Part shown: one piece after another, positions 896 through 59,766 of the stretch
Position numbering within the stretch: position 1 is the first letter of the stretch
Layout: each line of letters begins with the position of its first letter
Assembly (NCBI GenBank): GCA_003009755.1
Contig: PXUB01000003.1
Coordinates: 25,667-89,666 of the forward strand
Length of the DNA: 64,000 nt
Origin: Thermoplasmatales archaeon SW_10_69_26
GTDB taxonomy: Archaea; Thermoplasmatota; SW-10-69-26
Reading direction: 5' to 3'
Position numbers and translations under genes: made by a program
Notes under the pieces: model-generated
The model's database searches: none
What the model was told of the DNA's origin: nothing
What the model saw: only the letters and a program-made list of their open reading frames with translations

Positions 896-2185
896 GTGCC
901 CTCGATCCCCACCACGATCCTGCCTGACAGCACGCTCTCCTTGATGCGCAAGCCCTACGATTTCATCCGCGAGGAGTGCCAACGCCAGGGCGCCGACCTC
1001 TTCGCGACCCGGCTCATGCTCGAGCCGACGATCTGCGTGACCGGCCCCGAGGCCGCCGAGCTCTTCTACGACGAGGACCGGTTCCGACGCTACGGCGCCG
1101 CCCCGGTCCGCGTCCAGAAGACCCTCTTCGGCGACGAGGGCATCCAGAGCCTCGACGGCCAGGCCCACCGCCACCGCAAACGGATGCTGATGGACCTGAC
1201 CACGCCGGAACGGGCCCGGGACCTGGCAGTGCGCTTCCGGCAACTGTGGCGGTCGACGGTGCCCCGCTGGGCCAGCGCCGACCGCGTCGTGCTCTACGAC
1301 GAGGTGCGCGAGCTGATCACCCGCAGCGTGTTGCCCTGGGCCGGCATCCCCGTCGACGAGGACGAGATCCCGACGCGGACCCGCCAGCTCAGCAGCCTCT
1401 TCGAGACCGCCGGCGCCGTCGGACCCAAGCATTGGAAGGGCCGCATGGACCGATGGCAGGCCGACCGCTGGGCCGGTGACCTGATCCAAAGCGTCCGCGA
1501 TGGCGAGATCGATCCACCGGAGGGCTCCCCGCTGCACGAGGTCGCCTGGCACCACGACCTGGCCGAGCGGCTGCTCGACCCGCGCGAGGCCGGCGTCGAG
1601 CTGTTGAACCTCCTGCGGCCGACCGTCGCCGTCGGCGTCTACATCACTTTCGTCGCCCACGCCCTCCACCAACACCCCACCTGGGACGACGACATCGACG
1701 ACGAGCGAGCCTCGCGCTGGTTCGCCGAGGAGGTCCGCCGACACTACCCCTTCTTCCCCGTCGTCGCCGCCCGCACGCGGCGATCGTTCACCTGGAAGGG
1801 CTACCGGTTCCCCGCCGACCGCCGCGTCCTCTTGGACGTCGACGGCACCAACCACGACCTCCGCGTGTGGGAGGACCCCCACGAGTTCCGGCCCGAACGC
1901 TTCCGCGAGGCCGACCACGGCCCCTACGGCTTCATCCCGCAAGGCGGCGGCGACCCCGAGACCGGCCACCGATGTCCCGGCGAGGACATCACGCTGGCTC
2001 TCACGGAGACGGCGCTGGACTGCCTGCAGCAGACCAGCTACGGCGTGCCCGCCCAGGACCAGGCGATCGACCGCAGCCGCTTGCCCGCGTTGCCCTCCGA
2101 GGGCTTCGTGATCGACGACGTCGAGCCCCAGCCCGAGATCGAGGCCGCGATCGAACCGCCCGAACAGCGCCGGACGGCCCCCTGA
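896..2185 (+). CDS. Cytochrome P450, CYP152-type fatty-acid peroxygenase
   Basis: Predicted 429-residue haem protein related to the bacterial fatty-acid alpha/beta hydroxylases that use hydrogen peroxide (P450-BSbeta, SPalpha, OleT). The N-terminal DSTLSLMRKPYDFI and the block KTLFG...LDGQAHRHRK are typical of CYP152. The I-helix carries LLRPTVAVGV: the Arg-Pro pair that binds the substrate carboxylate replaces the usual AGxET. ExxR is seen as EEVR, and the haem ligand is in HRCPGED. I chose GTG 896 because it gives the usual family length; the frame stays open upstream to 464 but reads as low-complexity Arg/Pro there. Hydroxylation versus decarboxylation cannot be told from the sequence. Confidence 0.88.
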   Translation: MPSIPTTILPDSTLSLMRKPYDFIREECQRQGADLFATRLMLEPTICVTGPEAAELFYDEDRFRRYGAAPVRVQKTLFGDEGIQSLDGQAHRHRKRMLMDLTTPERARDLAVRFRQLWRSTVPRWASADRVVLYDEVRELITRSVLPWAGIPVDEDEIPTRTRQLSSLFETAGAVGPKHWKGRMDRWQADRWAGDLIQSVRDGEIDPPEGSPLHEVAWHHDLAERLLDPREAGVELLNLLRPTVAVGVYITFVAHALHQHPTWDDDIDDERASRWFAEEVRRHYPFFPVVAARTRRSFTWKGYRFPADRRVLLDVDGTNHDLRVWEDPHEFRPERFREADHGPYGFIPQGGGDPETGHRCPGEDITLALTETALDCLQQTSYGVPAQDQAIDRSRLPALPSEGFVIDDVEPQPEIEAAIEPPEQRRTAP

Positions 2186-2247
2186 TCCACCGTCCGCAGG
2201 GATCTCGAAGCGTTCAAGCCGATCCACCAGCGTCCTCCCCGACCACG

Positions 2248-2667
2248 ATGGTCGACACCCACCAGGACCGGGACATGAGCACGCACTTCACGGTCGTCGC
2301 CGCCCTCAACCTCGTCCTCGCCGTGCCCGCCATCCTGCTGGGCCTGTTCGTCTTCGTCGGCGGCCTGATCGGCGGCGGCGCCGTCGGCGCCTTCTCCGAC
2401 GTGCCCGCGGTCGGCGGCCTCGTCGCAGGGGCCGGCATCGTCGTCGGCCTCGGCATCATCGCGTTGGCCATCCCCGCCATCGTCGCTGGCGTCGGCCTGC
2501 TCAATCGCACGTCGTGGGCCAAACCCTGGACGATCGGGGCCGCCGTCCTGCACCTGATCAACGTCCCGATCGGCACCGCGTTCGGCATCTACGCGCTCTG
2601 GGCCATGCTCCAGCCCGAGACCGACCGCGCCCTGGGTCGGCCTACCTCGGCACCCCAACGCCCATAG
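2248..2667 (+). CDS. Small membrane protein of unknown function
   Basis: Predicted 139 residues with three or four hydrophobic helices rich in Gly, Ala, Val and Ile (roughly residues 14-45, 55-85 and 95-125). A second possible start is ATG 2275, nine codons downstream; neither has a clear ribosome site. It follows the P450 by about 60 bases in the same direction and could be cotranscribed with it. I do not recognise the family. Confidence 0.7.
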   Translation: MVDTHQDRDMSTHFTVVAALNLVLAVPAILLGLFVFVGGLIGGGAVGAFSDVPAVGGLVAGAGIVVGLGIIALAIPAIVAGVGLLNRTSWAKPWTIGAAVLHLINVPIGTAFGIYALWAMLQPETDRALGRPTSAPQRP

Positions 2668-2690
2668 GCCACGCTGGGCCTCTCGGACCC

Positions 2691-3767
2691 ATGACCGACC
2701 CATCGATCCGCGAACCGGACGTGCTCAACGAGCCCGGCGCCCGCGAACGCGCCGGCTGGGCCGCCGAAGCCGCCGAGCGCGAGAACGCCTTCGTGATCGC
2801 CTCCGGCAGCGTCCAACGCGAGACCCCGATCGTCGCGGACGTCGAGGAGGCCCTCGAGGACTTCCACGTCGGCACACACGTCGGGATCGGTCAACACGCC
2901 CCCAAGGACAACGTCGAGAAGGCCACCGAGGCCGCGCGCCGCGCCGACGCCGACCTCCTCGTCTCCGTCGGCGGCGGCAGCGTGCTCGACGCCGCCAAGT
3001 TCGTGCAACGCGAGCTCTCCGACGGGTTCGAGACCGAGATCCCCGCCCACGTCGCGATCCCGACCACGCTGTCCGGCTCCGAGTTCACGATCCTCGCCGG
3101 CTGGACCGCCGAGGGCTCCGACGGCCAGCCCGTCAAGACCGGCATGAGCGACCCCCGCATCGTGCCCGACGTCGCCCTGCTCGACGGCGAAGCCTGCACG
3201 TACACGCCGCGCTGGCTGTGGGCCGCCACCGGGATCCGCGCCGTCGACCACGCCGTCGAAGGCATCACCAGCTCGCAAGCCACCGAGGAAAGCGACGAGC
3301 GCTGCCTCGAAGCGATCGAGCTCTTCGCCGAGCACCTGCCCGAGGCCGTCGACGACGCCGACGACGTCGAGGCCCACACCCAGTGCCTGGAGGCGGGCCG
3401 CCAAGCCTCGGCCGGCATCAACTACGCCGCCAGCGGCGCCGGCCTCTCCCACAAGCTCGGCAAGGCGATCGGCTCCACCTGGGACGTCCCCCACGGCGTC
3501 ACGAGCGCGCTCACGCTGCCCAAGGTGCTCGAGTTCGAGGCCGAGCGCCAGCCCGAACGCGTCGCGCTCATCGAGGACGCGCTGGGCGTCGACGACGCCG
3601 CGGACGCCATCCGCCAGCTCGTCGCCGACGTCGGCATCGAGCGCAAGCCGCTCAAGGAGTACGGCATCGAGGGTACAGATGTGCCCTGGATCGTCGAGTA
3701 CGCGCTCGGCAAGCGCGACGACGACGTCGAGCAGCTGACGCTGGAGCTGCTGGAAGACGTGGAATAG
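2691..3767 (+). CDS. Iron-containing alcohol dehydrogenase family protein
   Basis: Predicted 358 residues of the group III (iron-type) alcohol dehydrogenase / maleylacetate reductase superfamily. The nucleotide-binding motif VSVGGGSVLDAAK is intact, followed by IPTTLSGSE. Metal ligands are expected from the Asp at DVALLDG and from His residues in AVDHAVEG, LSHKLG and the DVPHG region. The substrate cannot be assigned. The last about 90 codons are partly copied at 4898-5062, on the far side of the Xre-RES module. The start ATG 2691 is 23 bases after the preceding stop. Confidence 0.85.
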   Translation: MTDPSIREPDVLNEPGARERAGWAAEAAERENAFVIASGSVQRETPIVADVEEALEDFHVGTHVGIGQHAPKDNVEKATEAARRADADLLVSVGGGSVLDAAKFVQRELSDGFETEIPAHVAIPTTLSGSEFTILAGWTAEGSDGQPVKTGMSDPRIVPDVALLDGEACTYTPRWLWAATGIRAVDHAVEGITSSQATEESDERCLEAIELFAEHLPEAVDDADDVEAHTQCLEAGRQASAGINYAASGAGLSHKLGKAIGSTWDVPHGVTSALTLPKVLEFEAERQPERVALIEDALGVDDAADAIRQLVADVGIERKPLKEYGIEGTDVPWIVEYALGKRDDDVEQLTLELLEDVE

Positions 3768-3886
3768 GAAGGGCGGAGGCCTGCGGGCTTGGGTCCTCCG
3801 ACGATCTCAGCCTGACCAGATCGACCCGATCGGAGAACGTCCGCTGTAGCCACCGGAAGGACTAAGCCACTTGGCGGTCTTAGATA

Positions 3887-3898
3887 TGCCATATGGCA
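3887..3898. promoter_or_regulatory. 12-base palindrome overlapping the antitoxin start
   Basis: TGCCATATGGCA is a perfect dyad and contains the ATG at 3893. Just upstream, CTAAG and CTTAG form a second spaced dyad (3871-3882). Operators over their own start are typical of autoregulated Xre-type antitoxins, so this is a plausible autoregulatory site. That role is inferred from position and symmetry only. Confidence 0.45.
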
Positions 3899-4363
3899 CT
3901 AGGCGCCGGGGCGGGGGATGCGCCCTCTGTCGAGGCGGCAGGCGACACCGAGCTCCCGACGGTCATCCGGAGCTTGAACTTGCAGGCGTCGAGCCCGCTC
4001 GCGGTCGCCGACGAGATCGAACAGGGGTTGGGCGTCGACGCGCTGGAAGCCCTGCAAGAGACCCTCCGGTTGTCCGGTGACCAGATGGCCGAGGCCATCG
4101 GTATCTCCCCCCGAACGCTCTCCCGGAGGAGGGACGCCGGCATGCTCACCCCCGAGGAGTCGGACCGGCTCGTTCAGCTCGGGATCCTGTTCGACGAAGC
4201 CGTCGCGCTCTTCGACGGCGAAGTCGAGCAAGCCCGCGATTGGTTCAAGCACCCGACGCGAGCTCTGGGGGACGCGTCCCCGCTGGCCACGGCCAGCACG
4301 TTCGTCGGCGCCCGCGAGGTGGAGAAGCTCATCGGCCGACTGGAGCACGGGGTCTTCGCTTGA
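3893..4363 (+). CDS. Xre/ParS/MbcA-type antitoxin (DUF2384)
   Basis: Predicted 156-residue antitoxin of an Xre-RES module. A helix-turn-helix-like segment (about residues 60-88: LSGDQMAEAIGISPRTLSRR) is followed by the DUF2384 C-terminal half, visible as DEAVALFDG, ARDWFKHPTRALG and VEKLIGRLEHGVFA. These proteins bind the operator and block the toxin's active site. The stop TGA 4361-4363 overlaps the TTG start of the RES gene, the usual tight coupling. The region before residue 35 is not conserved, so the start could be further downstream. Confidence 0.88.
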   Translation: MALGAGAGDAPSVEAAGDTELPTVIRSLNLQASSPLAVADEIEQGLGVDALEALQETLRLSGDQMAEAIGISPRTLSRRRDAGMLTPEESDRLVQLGILFDEAVALFDGEVEQARDWFKHPTRALGDASPLATASTFVGAREVEKLIGRLEHGVFA

Positions 4364-4818
4364 CTCGGATCTGGCGGATGTGCAGATCTCGCCACCTCGA
4401 CGACGCCTTCGACGGCGAGGGAGCCCGACGCTACGGCGGCCGGTGGAACAGCCCCGGAACCCGGATGGTCTACACCGCGGACAGCGCCGCCCTCGCCACG
4501 CTCGAGATCCTCGTCAACCTCGAGCAGACAGCCTTGCTCGCGGCCTACAACTTCGTCCCGGCCGACCTCGACGAGGAGTTCATCGAGGATCTCGGCAACG
4601 ACGAGATGCCCGACGACTGGCGTCAGGCCCCGCCCTCCGAGAGCACGCAGCGCATCGGGGACGAGTGGATCGAAAGCGAGAGCTCCGTTGGACTGAGAGT
4701 CCCCAGTTCCGTGGTGCCTGGAGAGAACATCCTCCTGAACCCCGACCACTCCCACTTCCGGGAGATCGAGGTCCAAGAACCGATGGACTGGGACGCGGAT
4801 CCCCGGCTTCTGCCCTAG
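4360..4818 (+). CDS. RES-domain toxin (NAD+-degrading family)
   Basis: Predicted 152-residue RES protein. Key features are present: ARRYGGRWNSPG, VYTADSAALATLEILV, and the C-terminal SSVGLRVPSSVV...NILLNPDH. These cover the conserved Arg, Glu and Ser of the family and suggest an intact enzyme. Characterised relatives deplete NAD+ unless held by the Xre antitoxin. I chose TTG 4360 because it overlaps the antitoxin stop in a TTGA arrangement and because the family starts right at the RIWR-like segment. Confidence 0.88.
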   Translation: MTRIWRMCRSRHLDDAFDGEGARRYGGRWNSPGTRMVYTADSAALATLEILVNLEQTALLAAYNFVPADLDEEFIEDLGNDEMPDDWRQAPPSESTQRIGDEWIESESSVGLRVPSSVVPGENILLNPDHSHFREIEVQEPMDWDADPRLLP

Positions 4819-4897
4819 TAGCTCACACGTCTCGTTCCCCTTCACAGTCCGTGGGAGGTCAGTAGGGGCGTCCGACCGAGCGGGGTGGGCAACGCGA

Positions 4898-5062
4898 ACT
4901 GGGATCCCCCGCGGCGTCACGAGCGCGCTCACCCTGCCCAAGGTGCTCGAGTTCGAGGCCGAGCGCCAGCCCGAACGCGTCGCCCTCGTCGAGCACGCGC
5001 TCGGCAAGCGCGACGACGACGTCGAGCAGCTGACGCTGGAGCTGCTGGAGAGCGTCGAGTAG
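4898..5062 (+). pseudogene. Duplicated 3' fragment of the iron alcohol dehydrogenase
   Basis: From CTGGGATCCCCC (4898) to TAG 5060-5062 the sequence repeats the end of the 2691-3767 gene with few changes. An internal stretch of about 120 bases is missing. The join falls where the intact gene has two similar segments (GAGGACGCGCTGGGC and GAGTACGCGCTCGGC), so a microhomology deletion explains it. The final reading VEQLTLELLE is kept and the stop is in the same place. It has no start or catalytic part. It lies just after the Xre-RES pair. Confidence 0.85.
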
Positions 5063-5160
5063 ACGGGTCGGCGTCCGTCTCCGTCGGGTCGAGGACGACC
5101 GTGGCCTAGCTGTCCGTCGCCTCGTTGCCCACCTCGGCCCTCAGAGGTCGGCCGGGCATC

Positions 5161-7122
5161 TTAGGGGGTGGTGTCGTCGCTGTCCACCTGGGCGCCCACG
5201 GTCCCCTTCGGGGCCACGGTGCGGTCCACGCCGGTCCCGCCGGCACCGTCCTCGTACTCGTCGCGACCGCCGCCGTCCAGCAGCGCACCGACGCCCCCGG
5301 ACCAGCCGCCTCCGTTCGTGCCCCTGTCCTCGGCGGTGTAGATGTCGTTCCCGGCTCGGTCGAGCAGGAACCCCTCACCGTCCCAGTAGCCGCCGCCGTT
5401 CGTCCCTGCACCTTCCGCGGCGTAGGTGTCGTCCCCGGACCGATCAAGGAGACGGCCTTCGCCTCCGGCAGCGCCACCGTTCGTCCCTTCGAAGCCACCC
5501 TGGTACGTGTCGTTGCCCGCTCGGTCGACCAGCAGACCGCTGGCGCCGTCGGCTCCCCCACCGTTCGTGCCCACGTCGGCGGCAGCGTACGAGTCGTTCC
5601 CGGCCTCGTCGATCAAGGTTCCCTCGCCGTCGAAGTTGGCCCCCTCGTGGGCTCCGCCGTTGGTACCCGACGTCCCGGCGGTGTAGGTGTCGTCGCCACC
5701 TTCGTCGAGCAGGAAGCCCGTGCCCGAGTCCCCTCCTCCGTTCGTGCCCCTGTCCTCGGCGGTGTAGGTGTCGCTTCCGCCTCCGTCGAGCAAGGCACCC
5801 ACGCCAGCGAACCATCCGCCGCCGTTCGTGCCGAGGTCTTCCGCGCCGTAGGCGTCGTTGCCAGCTCGGTCGAGCAGGAAGCCGACCCCGTCGGATGTGG
5901 CTCCGCCATTCGCACCCGAGAGACGGGCGGTGTAGGTGTCGTTGCCGGCTCGGTCAAGCAGGGAGCCGGTGCCGAGGTTGTCTCCGCCTCCGTTCGTGCC
6001 GTGCGAAGCGGCCGTGTAGGTGTCGTTCCCGGTTTCGTCGAGCAGGAACCCTGCGCCGAGCGATCCACCCCCGTTCGTGCCGACGCGATGCGCATGGTAG
6101 ACGTCGTCCCCGCCCTCGTCGAACAGGAAGCCCGCACCCTCGTAGCCACCGCCGTTGGCACCACAGCTGCGGGGGTCGGTTCGATCTCCGAAGGCATCCT
6201 CGCCGTGACCGAGGTCGATCAACGCCGCGGACGCATACTCTCTCGTCTGGAGGAGCTGGCAAGTCCCCTCGGCGAGGTTGCTGCCACCGGCGTTGTTGCG
6301 GTAGCGGTCGTCGCCTCCCCCGTCGACCAGCACAGCCACGTCTTCCTCGTAGAGGTTGTCGCAAGAGGTCAAGTCGATCGAGAACGCAGGTGCCACGGTG
6401 AGGGGGTCACAGGCGGTCTGGGCCCCCGACTGGGGGAAGGCATCCTGTAGCCGGGTGGCGGCCTGGAGGACGTGTGTTCGGGACGTGAGGATGGGTCCCA
6501 GGTCTACGCCCGCCTCGGCCAGCGGGGTCGCACCCCTCGCGGAAGCGCTCTGGTGGGACGGACGGTCGGGGTCGACATCGGTCCCGGATGCAGCCATCGC
6601 GGCTTGGGGGCGCACGGTTCCCGGGTCGTAGCCCTCGTAGGCTCGCTGCGTGGCGGCATCGAAGGCCAAGAAGGCGTCGACGAACCGCGTCAGGGCATCG
6701 TGTTGCTCCGCGGGGAGGGTGTCGAGAACCTGGAGGGCCCGCCGGTCCTCGGACGAGGGTGTGGTGTTGTGGCGATCCATGAGCGTGGTCAAGGCATCGC
6801 TGGGCGAGCCATGGTGGGGCACCTCCACGTCGGCGAGCTCGGCTCCGTGCTGGTTGGCCTGCCACTCCGCCGCCTGCCGGGTCAGGCTCACCCTGTCTGC
6901 CTCCAGCGTGACTGGGGCCTCGGTCCGGCTACCGATCGCGCTGGCGTCCACCGAGAGCCGCTGGGCTACCGGGTCCGGGAGGAGCGGCAGGTGCAGCCGA
7001 TCGCGGACGTTCGCGTCCGCTGACGGGGACGCTGCGGTGGCGGAGGTCGCCAACCCCAACAGGACCAAAGCCACCACGCCCACGCCGACGATCGCCCAAG
7101 ATAGGGATCGCGTAACCGTCAT
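5161..7122 (-). CDS. Large secreted Gly/Asn/Asp repeat protein
   Basis: Predicted 653 residues. A hydrophobic N-terminal segment (SWAIVGVGVVALVLLGLA) ends in ATA-A and looks like a signal peptide. Residues about 30-270 form an alpha-rich domain of unknown type. The C-terminal half has about eleven repeats of 22-29 residues, each with GTNGG then LLDxxGNDTYxA. It ends in TDRTVAPKG-like sequence shared with the protein at 1-555. I chose ATG 7122; ATG 7170 (MFFRARR) is also possible. The repeat spacing suggests stacked beta turns, perhaps metal-binding through the Asp/Asn ladder. That role is inference. Confidence 0.82.
   Translation of the reverse strand: MTVTRSLSWAIVGVGVVALVLLGLATSATAASPSADANVRDRLHLPLLPDPVAQRLSVDASAIGSRTEAPVTLEADRVSLTRQAAEWQANQHGAELADVEVPHHGSPSDALTTLMDRHNTTPSSEDRRALQVLDTLPAEQHDALTRFVDAFLAFDAATQRAYEGYDPGTVRPQAAMAASGTDVDPDRPSHQSASARGATPLAEAGVDLGPILTSRTHVLQAATRLQDAFPQSGAQTACDPLTVAPAFSIDLTSCDNLYEEDVAVLVDGGGDDRYRNNAGGSNLAEGTCQLLQTREYASAALIDLGHGEDAFGDRTDPRSCGANGGGYEGAGFLFDEGGDDVYHAHRVGTNGGGSLGAGFLLDETGNDTYTAASHGTNGGGDNLGTGSLLDRAGNDTYTARLSGANGGATSDGVGFLLDRAGNDAYGAEDLGTNGGGWFAGVGALLDGGGSDTYTAEDRGTNGGGDSGTGFLLDEGGDDTYTAGTSGTNGGAHEGANFDGEGTLIDEAGNDSYAAADVGTNGGGADGASGLLVDRAGNDTYQGGFEGTNGGAAGGEGRLLDRSGDDTYAAEGAGTNGGGYWDGEGFLLDRAGNDIYTAEDRGTNGGGWSGGVGALLDGGGRDEYEDGAGGTGVDRTVAPKGTVGAQVDSDDTTP
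5225..6180 (-). repeat. In-frame coding repeats of the GTNGG / GNDTY unit
   Basis: About eleven coding units of roughly 66-87 bases, seen on the plus strand as recurring CCGTTCGTGCC and GGCGGTGTAGGTGTCG blocks. Spacing varies and third positions differ, so the units are not recent exact copies. They are part of the protein at 5161-7122. Confidence 0.85.
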
Positions 7123-7176
7123 CCGTGCGAGCCGCCCAGCGGGGAGAACCCGCCGTGCGCGGAAAAACATGAGGTC

Positions 7177-7671
7177 TTGCCGCCCAGTTGGGGCACACCT
7201 CTGACTGCTCCGGCCGCCGCCGACCATGGCGCTGGACAGAAGTTCGTGGAGATGCAGGTTGGGCAAGCGCCGCTCCCGACGGCTGGCAACCACGTTCACC
7301 TCGACCCCGCCGACCCGGTCGGCACAGAGCGGACCGTGGCGACGTTCGAGGTCCCCGACCACGACGATCGGTTCTACCTGCACGTGACCGAGGTCCAGAC
7401 CAACGGCGCGGCGGTCGAGTTCAGCGACCGCATCACCGCCGTCAGCCCCGACGGTAACCGAAGCGAGGTCGGCGGCTACACGCCGAACGGCAACTTCGTC
7501 GCGGTCTGGGCCTGCTACGATCCCCCGGCTCCGTTCTGTTCGGATGAGCGCCATCCCGGCCTGGATCCACCCCACGTGACCGAGGCCGGAGACGGGGAGT
7601 ACGAACTCCGGTTCGTCGGCCTCACGTCCCTCAGCTACACCGTCTCCGTGTACGGGTTCGTCGACGGATAG
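7177..7671 (+). CDS. Secreted-family paralogue lacking its signal peptide
   Basis: Predicted 164 residues. From AAADHGAGQKFVEMQVG onward it aligns with the next gene (AADDGAGETFVEMEIG), and both end in YTV..YG. The signal peptide of the neighbour is absent: the frame opens at a TTG only a few bases from the start of the divergent repeat protein. It is probably an N-terminally truncated duplicate and may not be expressed. The C-terminal YELRFVGLTSLSYTV resembles the strand pattern of pre-peptidase C-terminal type domains; that comparison is tentative. Confidence 0.5.
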   Translation: MPPSWGTPLTAPAAADHGAGQKFVEMQVGQAPLPTAGNHVHLDPADPVGTERTVATFEVPDHDDRFYLHVTEVQTNGAAVEFSDRITAVSPDGNRSEVGGYTPNGNFVAVWACYDPPAPFCSDERHPGLDPPHVTEAGDGEYELRFVGLTSLSYTVSVYGFVDG

Positions 7672-7680
7672 TCCCCGAAG

Positions 7681-7690
7681 TCCTTATCCA
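7681..7690 (+). promoter_or_regulatory. TATA-like promoter element
   Basis: TCCTTATCCA is centred about 26 bases before ATG 7712, which places transcription initiation at or next to the start codon. This fits a leaderless archaeal promoter. Confidence 0.5.
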
Positions 7691-7711
7691 CGCCGAGACG
7701 GTTCGACTGAC

Positions 7712-8230
7712 ATGCGATGGAGGTCCGGGCTCGCGGTCTGGGTCGGTCTAGCGATGGCGTTGCTGGGGATGGCTCCGGTCGCCGCCGACGACGGCGCCGG
7801 AGAAACGTTCGTCGAAATGGAAATCGGTGACGCACCGGCACCTACCGTCGGGTACACGACCGAGACGGACGGCGGTTTTCCCGCCGACCGGGGACGCACC
7901 GTGGACACCTTCGAGGTGCCCGACCGCTTCGACGAGTTCCACCTCTACATGACCGAGAAGCACACCGAGGCCACGACGCGCGCCGAGGTGTGGGAGAGCT
8001 TCACTGCTGAGGCGCCCAGCGGGGCCTCGGTCCAGGTCGGCGGCCACACCGGCGGCACCGGGTTCGGGTTCAGCACCTGCCTCCCGCCGGCGGTGTCCTG
8101 CACGTACGAGAAGCACCCCGGATCGAACCCGAACTACGTCAAGCCGGCCGAGGACGGAACCTACGAACTCCGGGTGGAGGGCGTCGTGACCGGCACCTAC
8201 ACGGTCACCGGCTATGGGCTCAGCGGGTGA
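7712..8230 (+). CDS. Secreted protein of unknown function
   Basis: Predicted 172 residues with a clear signal peptide (SGLAVWVGLAMALLGMAPVAA, cut near AA-DD). The mature part has two cysteines (FSTCLPPAVSCTY) and a C-terminal strand-rich stretch GTYELRVEGVVTGTY. It is the intact partner of the truncated copy at 7177-7671; the pair arose by tandem duplication. Confidence 0.75.
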   Translation: MRWRSGLAVWVGLAMALLGMAPVAADDGAGETFVEMEIGDAPAPTVGYTTETDGGFPADRGRTVDTFEVPDRFDEFHLYMTEKHTEATTRAEVWESFTAEAPSGASVQVGGHTGGTGFGFSTCLPPAVSCTYEKHPGSNPNYVKPAEDGTYELRVEGVVTGTYTVTGYGLSG

Positions 8231-8251
8231 GAGCCTCGGCTTCCGGGCCGC

Positions 8252-8500
8252 TCATGCGCCCCGCGGGTCGACGAGCCGGAACCCGATGTCCGAGCCCATC
8301 TGCTGATCGAACGCCAGCTGCCTGTTCAGGTACGCCAGCGATTCCAGGTAGCGCGCATTCGCCAGCGGGCCGGCATCCGTCGTCTCGAACCCGATATCCT
8401 CGGCCAACGAGACCGCCTCCCGGCGAGCCTGCTCGTCGCCGGCCGCGACCACCGTCAACGGTTCCCCGCGCACGTCGCCGGACGGAGAGGCTTCCGAGAA
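8252..8500 (-). pseudogene. C-terminal remnant of an F420-dependent NADP reductase-like protein
   Basis: Minus-strand reading gives TVVAAGDEQARREAVSLAED, then IGFETTDAGPLANARYLESL, and then a segment ending GSDIGFRLV. This matches the end of the 8-hydroxy-5-deazaflavin:NADPH oxidoreductase family, where DAGPL and the following helix are conserved. The N-terminal Rossmann half is absent; the sequence runs directly into the HPD fragment. It is a broken piece. Confidence 0.65.
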
Positions 8501-8567
8501 AGGAACTGTTCGAGGACGCCCCCTCCCGGGGCCGCCTCGTGACCGACCGAGCCGCTGAGGCTCCCCG

Positions 8568-8737
8568 CTATTCGAGCGTGCGGCGCTCGGCCTGCTGTTG
8601 CTCGATCGCCTTGAACAGGGCCTTGAAGTTGCCCTTGCCGAACCCTTGGGCGCCCCTACGCTGGATGATCTCTCGAAGAACATCGTCGGGCGATCCTGGA
8701 TCGGGTTCGTGAACAGCTGCAGCAGGTAGCCCTCGTG
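8568..8737 (-). pseudogene. Duplicated 3' fragment of 4-hydroxyphenylpyruvate dioxygenase
   Basis: The segment repeats the last about 57 codons of the gene at 9811-10971, including LLQLFTNPIQDRP and GFGKGNFKALFKAIEQQQ. Two extra bases (CTCTCG versus CTCG near 8674) break the frame. Similarity continues past the stop codon (GACCGACCGAGCC in both). It lies just before the nucleotidyltransferase/HEPN module, mirroring the arrangement at 3.7-5.1 kb. Confidence 0.88.
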
Positions 8738-8798
8738 ACCCCTGGACGTGAGTCCACCTTTCGAAACCATCAAACCGTCGCCGCTGCGTTCGCGATGC

Positions 8799-9119
8799 GT
8801 GCCGAACCGACGGAGAGACGCCGCGAGGGAGTTCGCCCGCCGGCTCGAGCAGTTGCTGGGCGACAACGTGCGGTCGATCCTCCTCTTCGGATCCGTGGCC
8901 CGCGGCGAGGACGACGCTTCCAGCGATGTGGATCTCCTGGTGATCGTTGAGGACGAAGGCGAGGTGCCCGATCTCTCTGAGGCAATCGGGTCCTGGATGG
9001 TGGAGCACGACGAGGTTCTCCAGCTCCACGTCGTCTCGCGGGAGAAGTACGAGGAGCTCCGTTCCAGAGGCACCGCGTTCGCCAACACGATCGCAAGAGA
9101 GGGCGAAGCGCTTGCCTGA
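8799..9119 (+). CDS. MNT-type nucleotidyltransferase (antitoxin of HEPN/MNT pair)
   Basis: Predicted 106 residues with the minimal nucleotidyltransferase core: LFGSVARGEDDASSDVDLLV contains GSxARG and the DxD metal ligands. In MNT/HEPN systems this protein adds AMP to the HEPN toxin and silences it. GTG 8799 (VPNRRRDAARE) fits the family length; an upstream GTG at 8748 is in frame but lies on the edge of the duplicated HPD fragment. The stop overlaps the next gene's start by 8 bases. Confidence 0.8.
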   Translation: MPNRRRDAAREFARRLEQLLGDNVRSILLFGSVARGEDDASSDVDLLVIVEDEGEVPDLSEAIGSWMVEHDEVLQLHVVSREKYEELRSRGTAFANTIAREGEALA

Positions 9120-9507
9120 CGGAGCGGACCGGGAAGCGCAGGCGACCTTCGAGGAGGCCGAGCGGTTCCTCGACGAGGCTCATCGCCTCCACCGAGCGGG
9201 TTTCTCCGGGCCCTCGCTTCGATCCTCCTACTATGCCTGTACCACGCGGCGCGAGCTCTGCTCCGTCTCGAGGGAAGCGACCCGAAGACACATCGCGGCG
9301 TGGTTTCCGAGTTCACGCGCCTCCTCGTGCGCGAGGGACCGTTCACGGAGGGAACGAGTGGCGACCTCAGCCGGGTCCTGTCAACGGTTGGAGAGCGACT
9401 ATGAACCCGGCTTGGAGGTCACCCAAGAGAAGGCCAACTGGGCCCTGGAACGCGCCCGACGATTCGTGAACGAGGTAGGTGACGAACTGGCGACACGCCT
9501 GTCGTGA
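9112..9507 (+). pseudogene. HEPN-domain toxin gene with two frameshifts
   Basis: The start TTG 9112 overlaps the antitoxin gene. The N-terminus (QATFEEAERFLDEAHRL...SSYYA) and C-terminus (DYEPGLEVTQEKANWALERA) are in one frame. The middle, which reads LYHAARALLRLEGSD, PKTHRGVVSEFTR and GPFTEGTSGDLSR, is in another. About one base is missing near 9238 and the frame returns near 9385. All HEPN motifs, including DPKTHRG, are recognisable, so decay is recent or an assembly error is present. As written the toxin is not made intact. Confidence 0.75.
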
Positions 9508-9810
9508 GGTCCAGCCGTCGGACGAGGCAACCTCGAAAACGGAGCTGGCGAGAACGAGGGGATGAGAGGACGACCCCTCCCGGGGCCGTCTAACCGGCGG
9601 TGGACGCGACGATGCGAGCGAGGTCGGCGACGAACGAGCGGACCGAGGCAGGGCGTACGAAGAGATGAGTTCGGCGTGAGCGGTCGCTGACGAGGAGCGC
9701 GAAGCAGGGATACCCCTGTGGTATCCCGATGCAGCGCAACGACCGTCAGCGGGACCCGCTCACGCCGGCCTGCCGAGGGAGCTCGTGAGGCAGCCGACCG
9801 ACCGAGCCCC
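9508..9810. other. Intergenic region with a strong hairpin
   Basis: No gene is seen. GGGATACC and GGTATCCC (9707-9727) form a perfect 8-base stem with a 5-base loop downstream of both flanking genes. A block near 9567-9592 (GAGGACGACCCCTCCCGGGG) recurs with few changes at 8512-8539 beside the HPD fragment, so the duplicated DNA extended beyond the gene's end. Confidence 0.5.
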
Positions 9811-10971
9811 CTATTCGAGCGTGCCGCGTTCTTCCTGCTGCTGCTCGATCGCCTTGAACAGGGCCTTGAAGTTGCCCTTGCCGAACCCTTGGGCGCCCTT
9901 GCGCTGGATGATCTCGAAGAACATCGTCGGGCGATCCTGGATCGGGTTCGTGAACAGCTGCAGCAGGTAGCCCTCCTCGTCCTGGTCGACGAGGATGCCG
10001 AGCTCGGCCAGGTCCTCGAGCTTCTCGTCGATGTCTTCGACGGGGATGCGGTCGGGCAGGTCCTCGTAGTAGGTCTCCGGGGCGTCCAGGAAGTCGACGC
10101 CGCGGCCGCGCATCTGGTCGATCGTGGTCAGGATGTCGTCGGTCGTGATCGCCAGGTGCTGCACGCCCGGCCCGGGGTAGAAGTCCACGTACTCCTGGAT
10201 CTGGGACTTCTTGAGGCCCTCGGCGGGCTCGTTGAGCGGGATCTTGACCGACAGGTCGTCGTTGGCCATGACCACGGACCGCAGCGCGGTGTAGTCCGTC
10301 GAGATGTCGTCCTCGTCGAACCCGACGAAGCGCTCGAAGCCGAACACGTCCTCGTAGAAGCTGGCCCAGGGCTCGAGACCGCCCTCCGGCAGGTTGCCGA
10401 CGGTGTGGTCGATCGTGCCGAGGCCGACGTCGCCGGCGCCGTCCGCGTCGTCGTAGGGCTCGTAGCCGGGCAGGAACACGCCGTCGTAGTCGGAGCGGTC
10501 GACGAACGTGTGCACGGTGTCGCCGAACGTCGCGATCGTCGCGATCTCGACGGTGCCATGCTCGTCCTCGAGCGTCTCCGGCTTGCGCACCGCGACCCCG
10601 TCGTCGATCTCGCCCTGCGTGAGCTGATCCTCGTAATCGCGGGCGCGGTCGAGCGCGGTCTGGAACGTGTCCTCGACATCGTCAGCCGCCAAGGCGACGT
10701 CGCGGACGCCGTCGGTGTGCAGAGCCACGTGGTCGGCGATCGTGGTGTCCGGCGTCATCGGCGCCGTCAGGACGATCCGGATGTCCCCCTGCTCCATCAC
10801 GTAGCTGGCCCGATCCTCCACGTCCGTCTCTGGGCCGGCGTAGGCGACGGGTTCGAAGCCGTACGCGTGTTCGTAAACGTAGGCCGCCTGCTTGGCGTTC
10901 CCAACGTACAGTTCGACGTGGTCGAACCCCTCGATCGGGAGCTGTTCCACGTCCGTGTCGTTCGAGGTCAC
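9811..10971 (-). CDS. hpd: 4-hydroxyphenylpyruvate dioxygenase
   Basis: Predicted 386-residue iron enzyme that converts 4-hydroxyphenylpyruvate to homogentisate in tyrosine degradation. It has two VOC-type halves: the first with FDHVELYVGNAKQAA, the second with the iron ligands in TIDHTVGN, GVQHLAI and FFEIIQRKGAQGFG. The GTG start at 10971 is preceded by GGAGGG about 8 bases away. A CCTTATC element lies about 45 bases upstream (near 11018). A fumarylacetoacetase-family gene 4 kb away (14784-15746) could act in the same pathway. The 3' end is duplicated at 8568-8737. Confidence 0.9.
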   Translation of the reverse strand: MTSNDTDVEQLPIEGFDHVELYVGNAKQAAYVYEHAYGFEPVAYAGPETDVEDRASYVMEQGDIRIVLTAPMTPDTTIADHVALHTDGVRDVALAADDVEDTFQTALDRARDYEDQLTQGEIDDGVAVRKPETLEDEHGTVEIATIATFGDTVHTFVDRSDYDGVFLPGYEPYDDADGAGDVGLGTIDHTVGNLPEGGLEPWASFYEDVFGFERFVGFDEDDISTDYTALRSVVMANDDLSVKIPLNEPAEGLKKSQIQEYVDFYPGPGVQHLAITTDDILTTIDQMRGRGVDFLDAPETYYEDLPDRIPVEDIDEKLEDLAELGILVDQDEEGYLLQLFTNPIQDRPTMFFEIIQRKGAQGFGKGNFKALFKAIEQQQEERGTLE

Positions 10972-20534: not shown

Positions 20535-20716
20535 TCGGGCCCCGGCCCGCCCACCTCGCCGACGATCGGGTCACCGGCGAGACCAGCAGCGAGCGGGACG
20601 TGCTCGTCGTCTTCGCCGCCGAGGAGGCCGACCGCCAGGACACGCCCGCCCCCGCGGCCGCCCTCGCCGCGATGGCCATCGTGGGCGCCGCGCTCCTAAA
20701 CTGCCGGACGTGTTTT

Positions 20717-20985
20717 GCTTAAGCTCTCGCGCCGGTCTGAGCGAGGTAAGGTCGCGGAGCCCGAGGAAGGAAACCCCTGTGGGTTTTCGACGGATGCTGG
20801 GGGCGACAACGGCCGAGCACCGGTCTGCCACGCAGACCGGTCTCGGCTGCGTACGGATCTTCGATCCGGGCGAATCCAGCGATCGGCCACCGGCCGATCG
20901 GTGGAGAATACGAATCTCCGATTCGTGTGAACCTTCGTCTCGGCTCCGCGCTTTCACCGCCTGAGGGCGGCGAGAGCTTAACCCA
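20717..20985 (+). ncRNA. Candidate structured non-coding RNA of unknown family
   Basis: Ends pair perfectly over 12 bases (TTAAGCTCTCGC 20719-20730 with GCGAGAGCTTAA 20970-20981). Inside, GCGGAGCC...AAGG (20754-20770) pairs with CCTT...GGCTCCGC (20932-20949). Between these lie five perfect hairpins: 20771-20786, 20812-20847 (16 pairs, one bulge), 20854-20868, 20880-20900 and 20910-20926, four of them with three-base loops. An AT-richer CTCCTAAAC lies about 25 bases before the 5' stem. Long frames here are arginine-rich. I found neither the GAGGAAAGTCC core of RNase P nor the SRP domain IV motif, so the family is open. The strand follows the apparent TATA position and could be reversed. Confidence 0.6.
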
Positions 20986-21069
20986 AGCATGGCCGGCAGT
21001 CTAGCTCGACGCCGCTGAGACGAGCGTCCGGTCGGACGTTGAAGACCCAGCCCGTGCCTAGCCGGCTCG

Positions 21070-25989: not shown

Positions 25990-26064
25990 GGTCGGCTCCT
26001 ATCCCGACCAAGCCTCCCTCCGTTCTTAAGCGATTCGTCGTCGGCCCCCGCCGTGGACCCCGGG

Positions 26065-26227
26065 CTGTCTCGTTAAGCAGGGGCCGCGAAGGACACGAGG
26101 GATCGCCACGGCCACGAAGGGCCTGTGACTCGCCGCCGGGCGGCGTTGTCACGGCAGCTGCTCGCCTTTGTGCCCTGCGTCCCTTCGCGTACTTGGTGGT
26201 CCCCCCCGTTCCTTATCCTTACAGCGC
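26065..26227 (+). repeat. 160-base structured intergenic repeat, copy 1
   Basis: The copy begins CTGTCTCGTTAAGCAGGGGC and ends CTTATCCTTACA. It contains GAAGGACACGA and CCACGAAGG on one side, CCCTTCGCGT and TTGGTGG on the other, and a GTGAC...GTCAC stem with GCCGCC/GGCGGC at the centre. The whole is a long imperfect dyad. It is near-identical to copies at 47530-47688 and 56799-56960. It lies between guaA and the TPI gene. Confidence 0.85.
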
Positions 26228-26280
26228 GCGTGGACCCCCTCGCGTGGTTTTTCAACGATGCCGACGTTGGTCGCGCCACC

Positions 26281-28013: not shown

Positions 28014-28331
28014 ATGGCCGAGGACGATGACCAGGGCAGCGGGTTCAACGGGCCTCTGCCCGACGAGCGGAAGCGGGAGATGTTCGCTCTCGCCAAGAAC
28101 CTGCTCGGCGGCTCCCGCCTCGAGGTCGTCTGCGAGGACGGCGAGACCCGCATGGGACGCATCAAGGGCAAGCACAAGCGCCGCATGTGGATCCGCGAGG
28201 GGGATCTGTTGATCGTCAAGCCCTGGGACTTCCAGGACGAGAAGTGCGACGTCGAGTACCGCTACGTCCAGAACCAGTCCGAGTACCTCTCTCGCCGGGG
28301 CATGATCCCCGACGAGCTGGACGTGTTCTAG
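28014..28331 (+). CDS. eif1A: Translation initiation factor aIF1A
   Basis: Predicted 105 residues with the OB-fold S1-like domain: LLGGSRLEVVCEDGETRMGR, IKGKHKRRMWIREGDLLIVK and the C-terminal EYLSRRGMIPDEL. It binds the small ribosomal subunit A site during initiation. GGTTTTATCACG lies about 32 bases upstream of the ATG and GAGGAG serves as ribosome site. Confidence 0.95.
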   Translation: MAEDDDQGSGFNGPLPDERKREMFALAKNLLGGSRLEVVCEDGETRMGRIKGKHKRRMWIREGDLLIVKPWDFQDEKCDVEYRYVQNQSEYLSRRGMIPDELDVF

Positions 28332-28850
28332 CTCGGTCGGTCGGCTCCCTTGGGGTCTCCCGTCGGCAGGCTGCCCCCAGCGGCTCCCGCCGACGGCGTC
28401 GCTCTGGATCGGAACGCCTCCGGCATTCCTGCTTCGAGCTCGTTGTCAGTGACCGCTGAGGCTATGCAGTGGATTCGGGCAGCCTGCCTCGGTCCGACCC
28501 TTCGGTCGCCGACCTCCCTCGCTGTGAAGCCGGGGTCATTGTCAGCGAACATGGGAGGGCGGCCATCCTGCCTTGGGTCCAATCGGCAGAGGCCGGCCCT
28601 CCGAGGAGGACGGATCCTGATCCGTCCGAACCGTGAGGGCTCCTGCCGTCAGGCGAACCCTCGCGGGAAGCCGAGCTTGCTCGGCTGACCCTTCGGTCGC
28701 CGACCTGCCTCGCTGCTGTGCAGCTGCCTGTTGCTGCTTGAAGCCTGGACGATGATAGAGGGGGAACTCCGCAGGTCGTTTCCTCGTCTGAGCGGGGGAG
28801 GTTCTACCGCCAAGAGGGGAACCGATCCCGATCTGCCGTGGCACGACCCC
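28332..28850. other. 520-base non-coding region with many hairpins and a 29-base direct repeat
   Basis: Perfect stems occur at 28360-28396 (8 bases, with an inner 4-base stem), 28608-28627 (9 bases, loop CT), 28670-28685 (7 bases, loop TT) and 28712-28724 (5 bases). A 29-base sequence starting GACCCTTCGGTCGCCGACCT occurs at 28496-28524 and, with one change, at 28687-28715. GACC-GGTC inside it forms a tetraloop hairpin on either strand. No convincing protein is seen. It could hold one or two RNAs or a decayed insertion sequence. Confidence 0.5.
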
Positions 28851-29798: not shown

Positions 29799-30090
29799 GT
29801 GCGCGCGATAGCGGTCGTCTCGATCCATCCCATCGGCGAGGGGGCCAGCCTCGGCGACGAGATCCGAGACGATCGAAGTCCTCGAGGACGGCGGCCTCGA
29901 GCACGAGGTCGGCCCCAGCGGCACCACGATCCTCGGCGGCTGGGACGAGGGGATGGCCACGCTCGAGCGCTGCAACGAGGCCTTGGGCGCCCCCGAGACG
30001 CGGGTCAACACCGTGATCGAGGTCGACGCCAAGCCCGGCCTCGACCCCGGCGACATCGAGGCGAAGGTCGACCGCGGGACCGGTCCCTAA
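29799..30090 (+). pseudogene. Frameshifted second MTH1187-family gene
   Basis: VRAIAVVSIHPIGEGASLGD is read in one frame and, from about 29870, ETIEVLEDGGLEHEVGP, SGTTILGGWDEG and RVNTVIEVDAKPG in another. A single-base change near 29868 separates them. It is either a recent pseudogene or a sequencing error. The two copies align along their whole length. Confidence 0.75.
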
Positions 30091-30800
30091 ACATGAATCG
30101 CTACGGGCCGGCCCGTCTGCGGGTCCTCGTCGGGAACCTCGGGCAACCGGCCGGCCTCGCCCTCGGCCACGCGGTGGGCCGACCAGGCGGCGATCGAGGC
30201 GTCGAGCACGTCGCGCGGGCTCATCCGGCCGACGCCACCGAGCGAGCGCGTGGGCCGCAGCCCGGCTTCCGCCAACAGCGTCAGCCGTTCGTAGGTGGCT
30301 CGCGCGCCGCGCCCGTAGGTCTCCAGCGGCCCGCCCTCGCCGCGTGCGTCGTTGAGCGCCAGGTAGGAGACCTCGGGGTGCATCTCGACGATCCGATGAT
30401 CGTCGCCGGCGGCCTCGTTCACCGCCAACAGCCGCTGGCGGCCGGCGAACATCGGCTCCGCGGGCTGCGGGCAGCCCTGCTCCTCGGCGATCCGGCAAGC
30501 CTGCTCGTAGCTGTCGACCTCGAACACGGCCAACGGCGGCGTCCAGAACACGCGCTCGCCGGCCTCGCCCAGCGCCTCGCGAGCGGCCACGTCGGCCCGG
30601 CGGCGGCCATCGCGCTGGTTGCCCTCGGGGTCGTCGTGCCCGATCGGGACGTCGACGGCGATCGTGTCCGCGCCCTCGGCGGCGTCGAGCAGCTCGTCGA
30701 GCTGGTCGAAGCGGCGGATCGCCGCCAGCGAGCCGTCCTGCAGCTCGACGGCGACCCAGGCGTCCGGCTGGCGGGCGTCGACGCCCAAGACCCTCGTCAC
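30087..30800 (-). CDS. DUF429 family protein (copy 1)
   Basis: Predicted 237 residues. The RNase H-like fold is indicated by VLGVDARQPDAWVAVEL, IAVDVPIGHDD and VEMHPEVSYLAL; relatives are annotated as predicted nucleases. The acidic residues in GVD and AVDVP are kept. It shares the tail DPQTGRPVAIHV with two neighbours (DPRTGR.VA.H). Its stop overlaps the damaged thiamine-binding gene. Confidence 0.75.
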   Translation of the reverse strand: MTRVLGVDARQPDAWVAVELQDGSLAAIRRFDQLDELLDAAEGADTIAVDVPIGHDDPEGNQRDGRRRADVAAREALGEAGERVFWTPPLAVFEVDSYEQACRIAEEQGCPQPAEPMFAGRQRLLAVNEAAGDDHRIVEMHPEVSYLALNDARGEGGPLETYGRGARATYERLTLLAEAGLRPTRSLGGVGRMSPRDVLDASIAAWSAHRVAEGEAGRLPEVPDEDPQTGRPVAIHV

Positions 30801-30840
30801 GCGCCCGGCAGAACGCCGGGCCCGTTTGTACGTGACGGCC

Positions 30841-31206
30841 TCAGCAGGTGGAGTGGATCAAGGCGCCGACGTCGGCGTCCTCGGCGAGCTCGTTGTACCG
30901 CTCGACCGCCGCGTTCGACTCGAGCACCTCGGTCTCGATGCCCTGTTCCTCGAGCCAGGCCAGCGTCTGGTCCTGCACCTGCAGGCGCTCGTTCTGGCCG
31001 CGGGAGAGGATGATGCGCTGGGCCCCCTCGTCGACGAGCTCCTCGACGTCCCCGATCTGGATGCCGGGGACGTGGCTGGTGCCGGTCTCGTTCCAGTTCC
31101 AGCCGCGAGCGCCGCCGGGCCACAGTTTCGCGTCGCGGAACGAGCCGTGGCCCTCGACGTCGACCTGGCCCCACGACAGGTCCTCGATCGTTGGTGGCTT
31201 CTCCAT
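30841..31206 (-). CDS. Mth938-domain protein
   Basis: Predicted 121 residues: DLSWGQVDVEGHGSFRDAKL, then RIILSRGQNERLQ, then NAAVERYNELAED and GALIHSTC. This is the Mth938/NDUFAF3-like fold of unknown biochemical role. The C-terminal Cys and Asn-Glu pattern are typical. It sits between two DUF429 genes on the same strand, with gaps of about 40-50 bases. Confidence 0.75.
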   Translation of the reverse strand: MEKPPTIEDLSWGQVDVEGHGSFRDAKLWPGGARGWNWNETGTSHVPGIQIGDVEELVDEGAQRIILSRGQNERLQVQDQTLAWLEEQGIETEVLESNAAVERYNELAEDADVGALIHSTC

Positions 31207-31254
31207 CGTCGACCCTCGTGCTGGCAAGCGGGTCCCGGCTACATGGGTGCTGGG

Positions 31255-31950
31255 TCAGGCGTGCACGGCGACCAGGCGACCCGTGCGCGGGTCCGAGGGC
31301 GGGTCCCCGGGCAGACGGCGGGCCTGGCCGCGGCTCACGCGGTGGGCGGTCCAGGCGGCCGCGCAGGCGTCCAGCGCCGGGCGCGGGTCGTGGTCGGCCG
31401 GTTCCACCTCCTCCGGGTGCAGGCCCTCCCCGTGCAGCCGCTCCAGCCGCTCGTCGAGGGCGGCCCACGAGCTGCCGTAGTGCTCGGGCGGGCGCCGACC
31501 CGCGCCCATGTGGGCGAAGCTGACCTCCGGATGCACCTCGACCAGGCGCTGGTCGCGACCGGCGCGGTCGGCCAGCGCCGCCAGCCGGTCGGCGGCGAAC
31601 CACAGCGCGGCCTCGAGCTTGGGCCAGCCGCGCTCCCGGCACATCGCCAACGCCTCGTGGTACGTGTCGGTCGCGAACACGGCCGGCGGTGGCAACACGA
31701 AGAACCGCTCGCCGGCCTCGCCCAGCACCTCGCGCGCGGCCACGTCGCAGGCCCGCCACCCGTCGCTCTCGCCTCGGGGGTCCTCGTGGCCGAGGGGCAC
31801 GTCGACGGCGATCGTGGCCACCTCATCATCGGCCGCCAGGGCCGCGTCGAGATCCCCGGCCGCGTGCAGGTCGACGAGCTCGCCGTCCTCGATCTCGGCG
31901 ACCCAGAACGGGGCTCGTCCGCGAGCGTCGACGCCTTGGACCCGCACCAC
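31255..31950 (-). CDS. DUF429 family protein (copy 2)
   Basis: Predicted 231 residues. VQGVDARGRAPFWVAEIEDG, IAVDVPLGHEDPRGESDGW and VEVHPEVSFAHM align with copies 1 and 3. Divergence among the three is high, so duplication is old. GTG 31950 starts it. Confidence 0.75.
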   Translation of the reverse strand: MVRVQGVDARGRAPFWVAEIEDGELVDLHAAGDLDAALAADDEVATIAVDVPLGHEDPRGESDGWRACDVAAREVLGEAGERFFVLPPPAVFATDTYHEALAMCRERGWPKLEAALWFAADRLAALADRAGRDQRLVEVHPEVSFAHMGAGRRPPEHYGSSWAALDERLERLHGEGLHPEEVEPADHDPRPALDACAAAWTAHRVSRGQARRLPGDPPSDPRTGRLVAVHA

Positions 31951-31984
31951 ACGCTCGCGAACCCGGGTCCGGGTTGAAGACTGT

Positions 31985-32701
31985 TCACACGTGGATCGCG
32001 ACCGCTCGCCCCGTGCGGGGATCCGTGGGCGGATCGGTGGGCACCGTCCGCGCCGCCTCGCGTCTCACCCGTCGGGCGACCCAAGCGCAGGCGGCCGCGT
32101 CGACGACGTCGTGGGCGCGGGCCCGCCCGGCCTCGCCGGCCTCGCGGGGCAGCTCGATGCCCGCCGCCGACAGAAGCGACAGCCGTGCCCACCGTCCCCG
32201 CCAGGACCGCTTGGATCCGATCGCGAGGTCGGGGTCGTGGGTTCCAGCCATCGCCTGGAAGGCCAGTTCGGGGTGAGCCTCCACGAGGCGCGGGTCGCCG
32301 GTGGCCACCTCGCGGACCTCGCGGATGCGGTCGGCCAGCGCCCAGGCTTGGCGGGAGGGGGCGATCGTGTCGCGCTGGCGGGCCCGATCGACGGCCGCCT
32401 CGTAGGTCTCGGCCGCCATCACGTCCGGGGGCGGGACGGGGAAGACCGAGGCGGCCCTGTCCCCCAACAGGTCGCGAGCGCGCTCGTCGGCCCGCCGGCG
32501 GCCGTCGGCGTCGCCGTGGGGGTCCTCGTGCCCGATCGGGACGTCGACGGCCACGGCCTCGGCGGCCGGGTTGGCGTCGAGGGCTTCGGTCAGCTCCTCG
32601 ACGAAGGACAACGCGGGTGAGGCGTCCTCCGCCAGGCGGCACACGAGCCAGCCTTGGACCGAACCCATGCGAGCACCGTCGACACCGAGCACGCACGACA
32701 T
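31985..32701 (-). CDS. DUF429 family protein (copy 3)
   Basis: Predicted 238 residues. CVLGVDGARMGSVQGW, VAVDVPIGHEDPHGDADG and VEAHPELAFQAMAG define the family. Start ATG 32701 follows the upstream GNAT gene by about 11 bases, so the five genes from 33279 to 30087 may be one transcript. Confidence 0.78.
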   Translation of the reverse strand: MSCVLGVDGARMGSVQGWLVCRLAEDASPALSFVEELTEALDANPAAEAVAVDVPIGHEDPHGDADGRRRADERARDLLGDRAASVFPVPPPDVMAAETYEAAVDRARQRDTIAPSRQAWALADRIREVREVATGDPRLVEAHPELAFQAMAGTHDPDLAIGSKRSWRGRWARLSLLSAAGIELPREAGEAGRARAHDVVDAAACAWVARRVRREAARTVPTDPPTDPRTGRAVAIHV

Positions 32702-47476: not shown

Positions 47477-47529
47477 GCGCGAGGAAAGGAGGACGCCGGG
47501 TAAAGGCGTTGGCCTCCCCGGCCCCGGCG

Positions 47530-47688
47530 GTCTCGTTAAGTAGGGGCCGCGAAGGACACGAAGGATCGCCGAGGCCACGAAGGGCCTGTGACTCGCCGCC
47601 GGGCGGCGTTGTCACGGCAGCTGCTCCGCTTGGTGCCCTGGCGTCCCTTCGCGTACTTGGTGGTCCCCCCGTTTCTTATCCTTACAGC
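47530..47688 (+). repeat. 160-base structured intergenic repeat, copy 2
   Basis: Same element as 26065-26227 and in the same orientation. GTCTCGTTAAGTAGGGGCCG opens it, the central GTGACTCGCCGCCGGGCGGC is unchanged, and TTCTTATCCTTACA closes it. It sits upstream of nadE and downstream of the large secreted protein gene. Confidence 0.85.
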
Positions 47689-47710
47689 CCGTCTCCGGCC
47701 GCCCGCTCCC

Positions 47711-56669: not shown

Positions 56670-56798
56670 GGTGCTTCCCTCGTGGGGGTGTTTCAGCCCC
56701 GAATTCCCTCGCGAGCCTGGCAGGGCCCGGGAGCAACCTCGAGGCTGACGAGACCAGGCGAGGCCCACGCATAAGCATTGGGGCCCGGGCAGCTCGGG

Positions 56799-56960
56799 CT
56801 GTCTCGTTAAGCAGGGGCCGCGAAGGACACGAAGGATCGCCAAGGCCACGAAGGCCCTGTGACTCGCCGCCGGGCGGCCTTGTCACGGCAGCTGCTCCCC
56901 GTTGTGCCCTGGCGTCCCTTCGCGTCCTTGGTGGTCCCCCCCGTCTCTTATCCTTACATC
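56799..56960 (+). repeat. 160-base structured intergenic repeat, copy 3
   Basis: CTGTCTCGTTAAGCAGGGGC to TCTTATCCTTACA, in the same orientation as copies 1 and 2, with a handful of base changes. It lies between the divergent uS10 and deacetylase-like genes. Confidence 0.85.
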
Positions 56961-57030
56961 GCGCGGGCAGGTCGCCCTGTCGGACCGACGCGCGGGCAAG
57001 GCCCTTCACGGGCGAGCAGCTTGCGCTGGC

Positions 57031-59760: not shown

Positions 59761-59766
59761 TCCGAG

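Follow-up and report, generated by a model that had tools for sequence, protein, structure and literature searches.

How a solitary toxin-antitoxin (TA) module without a recombinase moves between chromosomes is a long-standing question, and it is raised by the 64,000-nucleotide stretch of Thermoplasmatales archaeon SW_10_69_26 analysed here (contig 3, positions 25667-89666, hereafter the window; the genome comprises 2.82 Mb in 49 contigs). Two TA modules of different types, an Xre-RES pair and an MNT-HEPN pair, each lie in this window between a gene and an orphan second copy of the 3' end of that same gene; the genes are an iron-containing alcohol dehydrogenase (ADH) and a 4-hydroxyphenylpyruvate dioxygenase (HPD), which are convergent and about 6 kb apart. 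We think that the modules arrived together with a gene end from the donor, by a homologous junction on one side and an illegitimate one on the other, and we give this reading a probability of roughly 0.6. The gene-end copies look like scars of DNA exchange with other lineages, and they hint at an entry of the modules without any mobile element.

What exactly is repeated? The intact ADH gene occupies 2691-3767 on the plus strand (PF25137/PF00465; its ortholog in G001, the sole other genome of the same family in our comparison set, is 72% identical), and its 3' segment, 3479-3767, is found again once only, beyond the Xre-RES module. The module consists of two adjacent, intact genes on the plus strand, for an antitoxin of the Xre/MbcA/ParS type (3893-4363; PF20432, 1.6e-16; PF09722, 8e-14) and for a predicted RES-domain toxin of the NAD+ phosphorylase family (4363-4818; PF08808, 1e-31), and judging by these genes it would be a regular Xre-RES system. 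The orphan copy (4899-5062, plus strand) lacks the 5' part of the gene and has lost about 123 bp internally with the frame kept; it aligns in two pieces, 3479-3587 with 4899-5005 (92.7%) and 3691-3767 with 4986-5062 (92.2%), and an alignment of the downstream DNA finds nothing in common past the stop codon. The sequence-only reading of this stretch had already noticed the repeat, and alignment at 92-93% bears it out. The RES gene is the only one of its genome and none exists in the six other genomes of the class, which speaks for acquisition; its best plasmid matches (46%) are in Halomonas.

The second gene, intact at 9811-10971 on the minus strand, we take to be HPD from family knowledge and the sequence-only reading. 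Its repeated 3' end is 9811-9975, and in the alignment 9807-9975 corresponds to 8564-8734 (94.2%, with a 2-bp insertion), a copy that was also found once only, beyond the MNT-HEPN module. The sequence-only reading was right about this copy and wrong about its extent: the orphan unit (8481-8734, minus strand) also contains, at 8481-8567, a remnant of the sequence downstream of HPD. This remnant aligns with 9538-9810 (none of 300 shuffles did as well), and a search of 696 kb of the genome finds the 14-bp motif GGCCCCGGGAGGGG at 8533 and 9587 and at no third place; because of the shared motif and the downstream alignment we regard approximately 8481-8734 and 9538-9975 as direct repeats with the MNT-HEPN module between them. 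Next to the gene, the downstream region (9538-9810, minus strand) holds an interspersed repeat of about 190 bp which splits the homologous parts, is mostly deleted in the orphan copy and is also present 3' of other genes. Its copies at 9614-9807 and 28331-28522 (74% identical) both start at the stop codon of the preceding gene, and further diverged copies lie on other contigs; a coding reading of 9600-9807 was dropped, this segment being the interspersed repeat.

Both modules have the domains and gene order of their families, and both had been taken for working pairs. This holds for the genes of Xre, RES and the MNT nucleotidyltransferase antitoxin, the latter being intact on the plus strand (8799-9119, with its start at 8799 or 8748; PF01909, 2e-10); it does not hold for the HEPN toxin gene (9112-9507, plus strand, PF05168). 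The reading frame of the latter matches PF05168 with E=7e-4, below the cut-off, and since the match improves to 2e-13 when the middle is taken in another frame, we conclude that the gene carries two frame disruptions. From its sequence the toxin descends from the HEPN family and is probably inactive. The Xre-RES module is an ordinary one, whereas the other combines an MNT gene with a broken HEPN partner. Adjoining the HPD copy there is one more orphan 3' end (8254-8503, minus strand), presumably of an NADP/F420-dependent oxidoreductase-like gene whose full version is on contig 6; it is 58-63% identical to that intact gene and to the G001 ortholog, and is older than the HPD copy. Like HPD and the PIN modules mentioned below, this F420-dependent reductase has no Pfam match, and these names come from sequence resemblance and general knowledge.

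Could two such arrangements lie side by side by chance? Whole-genome DNA searches revealed no other full copies of the ADH or HPD 3' ends, and in a sample of 905 kb (about 32% of the genome, in 30 segments, with 743 genes called by a simple codon-score script) no partial gene copies of high identity other than these two lie near their parents; partial 3' duplicates are thus not common elsewhere in the sample. When the two flanks of a gene pair are compared with each other, Xre-RES scores 159 bits and MNT-HEPN 261 bits, against one pair at 95 bits (tandem paralogues) and at most 42 bits for the rest among 494 other pairs. The suggestion that the same architecture at two TA types is unlikely by chance is therefore upheld, the more so as it recurs in relatives, including stacked arrays. 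This recurrence in independent genomes also bears on the idea that the assembly of a metagenome-assembled genome has joined strain variants. Fragmentation into 49 contigs would suit that idea, which we nevertheless consider very improbable, the window fragments being degenerate (indels, an internal deletion, a decayed toxin), unlike a second living strain.

A search for HEPN genes in 31 genomes gave 37 loci besides the window, whose surroundings were compared. Direct repeats of at least 50 bits within 1.5 kb bracket six of the 37, as compared with four of 309 non-overlapping control windows (Fisher p=1.5e-4) or 2.0% of 3,730 control positions (binomial p=1e-4). Tandem paralogues predominate among the controls, so that the background is not underestimated. 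Some of the six bracketed loci are not gene ends; inspection left three clear gene-end loci, one of them beyond the 1.5-kb limit. Two of the three are in G002, a genome of the same class as SW_10_69_26. At its locus L195, the 3' end of an N6/N4 DNA methyltransferase gene is present at 3-386, 1871-2244, 3723-4247, 5382-5480 and, in part, 6978-7189, and the intervals hold MntA-HepT (404-1058), Fic (2266-3252), HTH-MNT with HEPN (4289-5376) and Fic again (5622-6887), so that four toxin modules alternate with five copies of the gene end. At L191 some 5.3 kb of TA modules, stacked one after another (1689-7070), interrupt the V/A-ATPase operon behind atpA: atpA ends at 1689 and is followed by AbrB-MNT with HepT (1769-2625), an atpA 3' end (2818-3112), another gene, HTH-MNT with HEPN (4325-5402), a second atpA 3' end (5478-5592) and two modules, presumably of the PIN type, which were identified by eye, before the next ATPase gene at about 7,070. 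The third locus, L185 of G021 (same phylum), has the hycI 3' end at 3566-3617, a HEPN-MNT pair and the second copy at 4530-4581. The repeat at G021:C131 was set aside as a multi-copy gene segment, and G015:C519 and G016:C59, with their short repeats, stay outside the three clear cases. At L187 of G021 (1400-4826) a small Cys-rich gene segment is present three times, in alternation with MNT-HEPN and an AAA-ATPase-like gene.

The enrichment is no proof that TA genes are special cargo, because the control set consists mostly of resident genes. It is quite possible, if somewhat short of an even chance, that the link with TA modules is not special at all, any acquired DNA leaving gene-end scars in these archaea and TA genes being simply a common cargo. 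Gene-fragment copies do arise without TA genes, as seen at L205 of G002, where an 84% partial copy of an inner stretch of a large gene for a surface protein (4200-4417 and 7173-7391) has no TA module between its members, and the orphan end at 8254-8503 in the window lies away from its parent. The frequency at HEPN loci (6/37 versus 4/309) and the toxin genes in all four intervals of the methyltransferase array speak against such indifference to cargo.

The way in which the copies diverged tells more about their origin. In G002 the differences fall mostly at third codon positions, with 29 of 43 for atpA (p=5e-6) and 37 of 54 (p=1e-7), 43 of 57 (p=1e-10) and 13 of 21 (p=0.007) for the methyltransferase copies; for hycI the figure is four of six. 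An orphan fragment that lacks the 5' part of the gene is not translated into the protein and cannot be held to its coding sequence by selection; from this bias we therefore conclude that the G002 copies were still functional genes, in separate lineages, while they diverged, and that one of them was orphaned later. Beyond each new module in the G002 arrays thus lies a displaced gene end of a different allele, as homology-facilitated illegitimate displacement requires. In the relatives, moreover, the DNA downstream of the copies is unrelated from the stop codon or near it. Ends coming from different contexts would be expected to share no downstream DNA, and this would account for a similarity that ends at the stop codon.

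These observations bear directly on a rival in which the module inserts with a long target duplication, some 100-400 bp of the target being copied on both sides, as for restriction-modification (R-M) systems. The geometry and the size range are the same, the modules are indeed flanked by direct repeats of the target, and insertions of R-M systems with variable target duplications of about 100 bp are reported (PMC3874152 and PMC3031569). Plain target duplication, however, makes copies that are identical at birth and without codon bias, whereas the G002 copies differ mostly at third positions, which an orphan fragment could not have acquired afterwards; the ADH and relatives' copies, furthermore, share nothing after the stop codon. 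We consider it unlikely for these reasons, although decay after an identical duplication does predict one feature of the window, namely that all polarisable changes there are in the fragment. Target duplication is compatible with the differences in the window, as is an exchange with a close relative whose product then decayed. A tandem duplication of gene end and module with later loss of one module was rejected, no toxin or intergenic remnant being present after the fragments.

The sequence-only reading had offered two routes, integration as in integrative islands and homologous exchange that repairs the target gene. The first would bring in, by site-specific recombination or a single crossover, a circle on which the module is accompanied by a copy of the gene end, so that the gene is restored and its original end displaced; the order gene, insert, displaced end is that expected at the 3' end of a gene, and stacked modules resemble tandem accretion. 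We nevertheless hold it to be improbable, and island-like integration found no support, since no recombinase was recognised among the scanned proteins of the window, whose intervals of about 0.8-1.1 kb hold TA genes only, no circle or viral contig was found, and the repeats are anything between 52 and nearly 400 bp long, have no common starting point within the gene and concern many different target genes. The second route, an exchange restoring the gene end, fits best with the third-position bias in G002 and with a similarity between copies that, in ADH and the relatives, reaches no further than the stop codon or its vicinity.

How would such an exchange proceed? Donor DNA would bring the TA module and, adjoining it, the donor's version of the neighbouring gene's 3' part, and homologous exchange inside that gene would leave it intact, possibly as a chimera of resident and donor sequence. 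On the other side a junction independent of homology would form within the 3' part of the resident gene itself, and the severed resident end would remain beyond the module and then decay. Repeated events at one gene would produce an array of gene, module, old gene end, module and older gene end. We infer in this scheme the direction of transfer, the existence of a donor, the homologous and the illegitimate junction, and the same origin of both window cases, and several observations weigh against it. Third-position bias is weak in the window (9 of 16 differences, p=0.05), and such counts presuppose in all cases that the copies are aligned in their true frame. All 12 differences that can be polarised with the G001 ortholog (alignment read by eye) have changed in the fragment and none in the gene, and in HPD the duplicated stretch extends beyond the stop codon into downstream sequence. 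No empty site was found: G001 alone has the ADH and HPD genes, with different neighbours at both. No donor was found, nor viral contigs with relatives of RES, MNT, HPD or ADH. Finally, 31 of the 37 other HEPN loci are without such bracketing repeats within 1.5 kb, and most other TA pairs in the same genome have no flanking gene-end duplicates, among them the five other MNT-HEPN and nine PIN loci. The pattern is thus real, yet not every TA locus shows it.

Exchange through gene ends has parallels in bacteria. A 1,577-bp duplication that surrounds an integrative and conjugative element at the PabI locus of H. pylori has been put down to two junctions, one homologous and the other non-homologous (PMC4615327), which is the same junction logic with incoming DNA, but in a single bacterial case and with a large element. 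Displacement of type VI effector-immunity genes in Vibrio cholerae, and the orphan 3' ends of Rhs and contact-dependent inhibition (CDI) systems, combine homology on one side with illegitimate joining on the other (PMC5361080). There too a new module pushes the old 3' part downstream and repeats of the event give arrays; the displaced gene, however, is the toxin gene itself, whereas in our cases the role falls to a gene unrelated to the module (ADH, HPD, atpA, methyltransferase, hycI), which remains intact. Closest to the target-duplication idea are R-M systems inserted with long target duplications (Nobusato et al. 2000, as cited in PMC3874152, PMC3031569 and PMC1643837), likewise selfish two-gene modules between two copies of about 100 bp or more of neighbouring sequence; the present cases differ in their TA or Fic cargo in archaea, their repeats made of gene 3' ends, their stacked arrays, and G002 copies that first diverged as genes. 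We found no description of gene-end copies around TA modules, or of such arrays in archaea, in the literature searched, mostly outside subscription journals, which is weak evidence of novelty.

We would tentatively, and with less confidence than for the modules themselves, extend the proposal to Thermoplasmata-type archaea at large, in which TA and Fic modules may spread beside gene 3' ends used as a homology handle, with no mobile element, repeated rounds giving arrays of relics from different donors. If gene ends do serve in this way, every relic is the record of an earlier acquisition and of the lineage that donated it, and the history of module gain becomes readable from sequence and testable. 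A single route would then join the R-M target duplications and the effector-immunity displacement arrays, and would extend to archaea and to housekeeping genes, even those of so conserved an operon as the V/A-ATPase.

Some minor observations concern other repeats. Those near TA loci on C35, C1 and C20, tried as gene ends, turned out to be interspersed intergenic repeats, and what brackets the TA pair on C17 is likewise an interspersed repeat rather than a gene end. One intergenic family of about 170 bp is present in the window at 26061-26230, 47522-47691 and 56795-56965 (91-96% identical), with a dozen copies in about 430 kb of the genome; Rfam gave no match in the window. Two further short intergenic families, at 20695-20769 and 20914-21005, also adjoin TA loci on C35 and C20. 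Two genes, at 1-555 and 5161-7575, encode secreted-looking proteins in which a motif like DGANGGGxxxGxGxLLDxxGDDxY recurs many times, the second being without a Pfam match. Finally, the window contains three tandem paralogous genes on the minus strand (30087-32668) and a tandem duplication of about 1.3 kb with 75% identity at 58477-61294.

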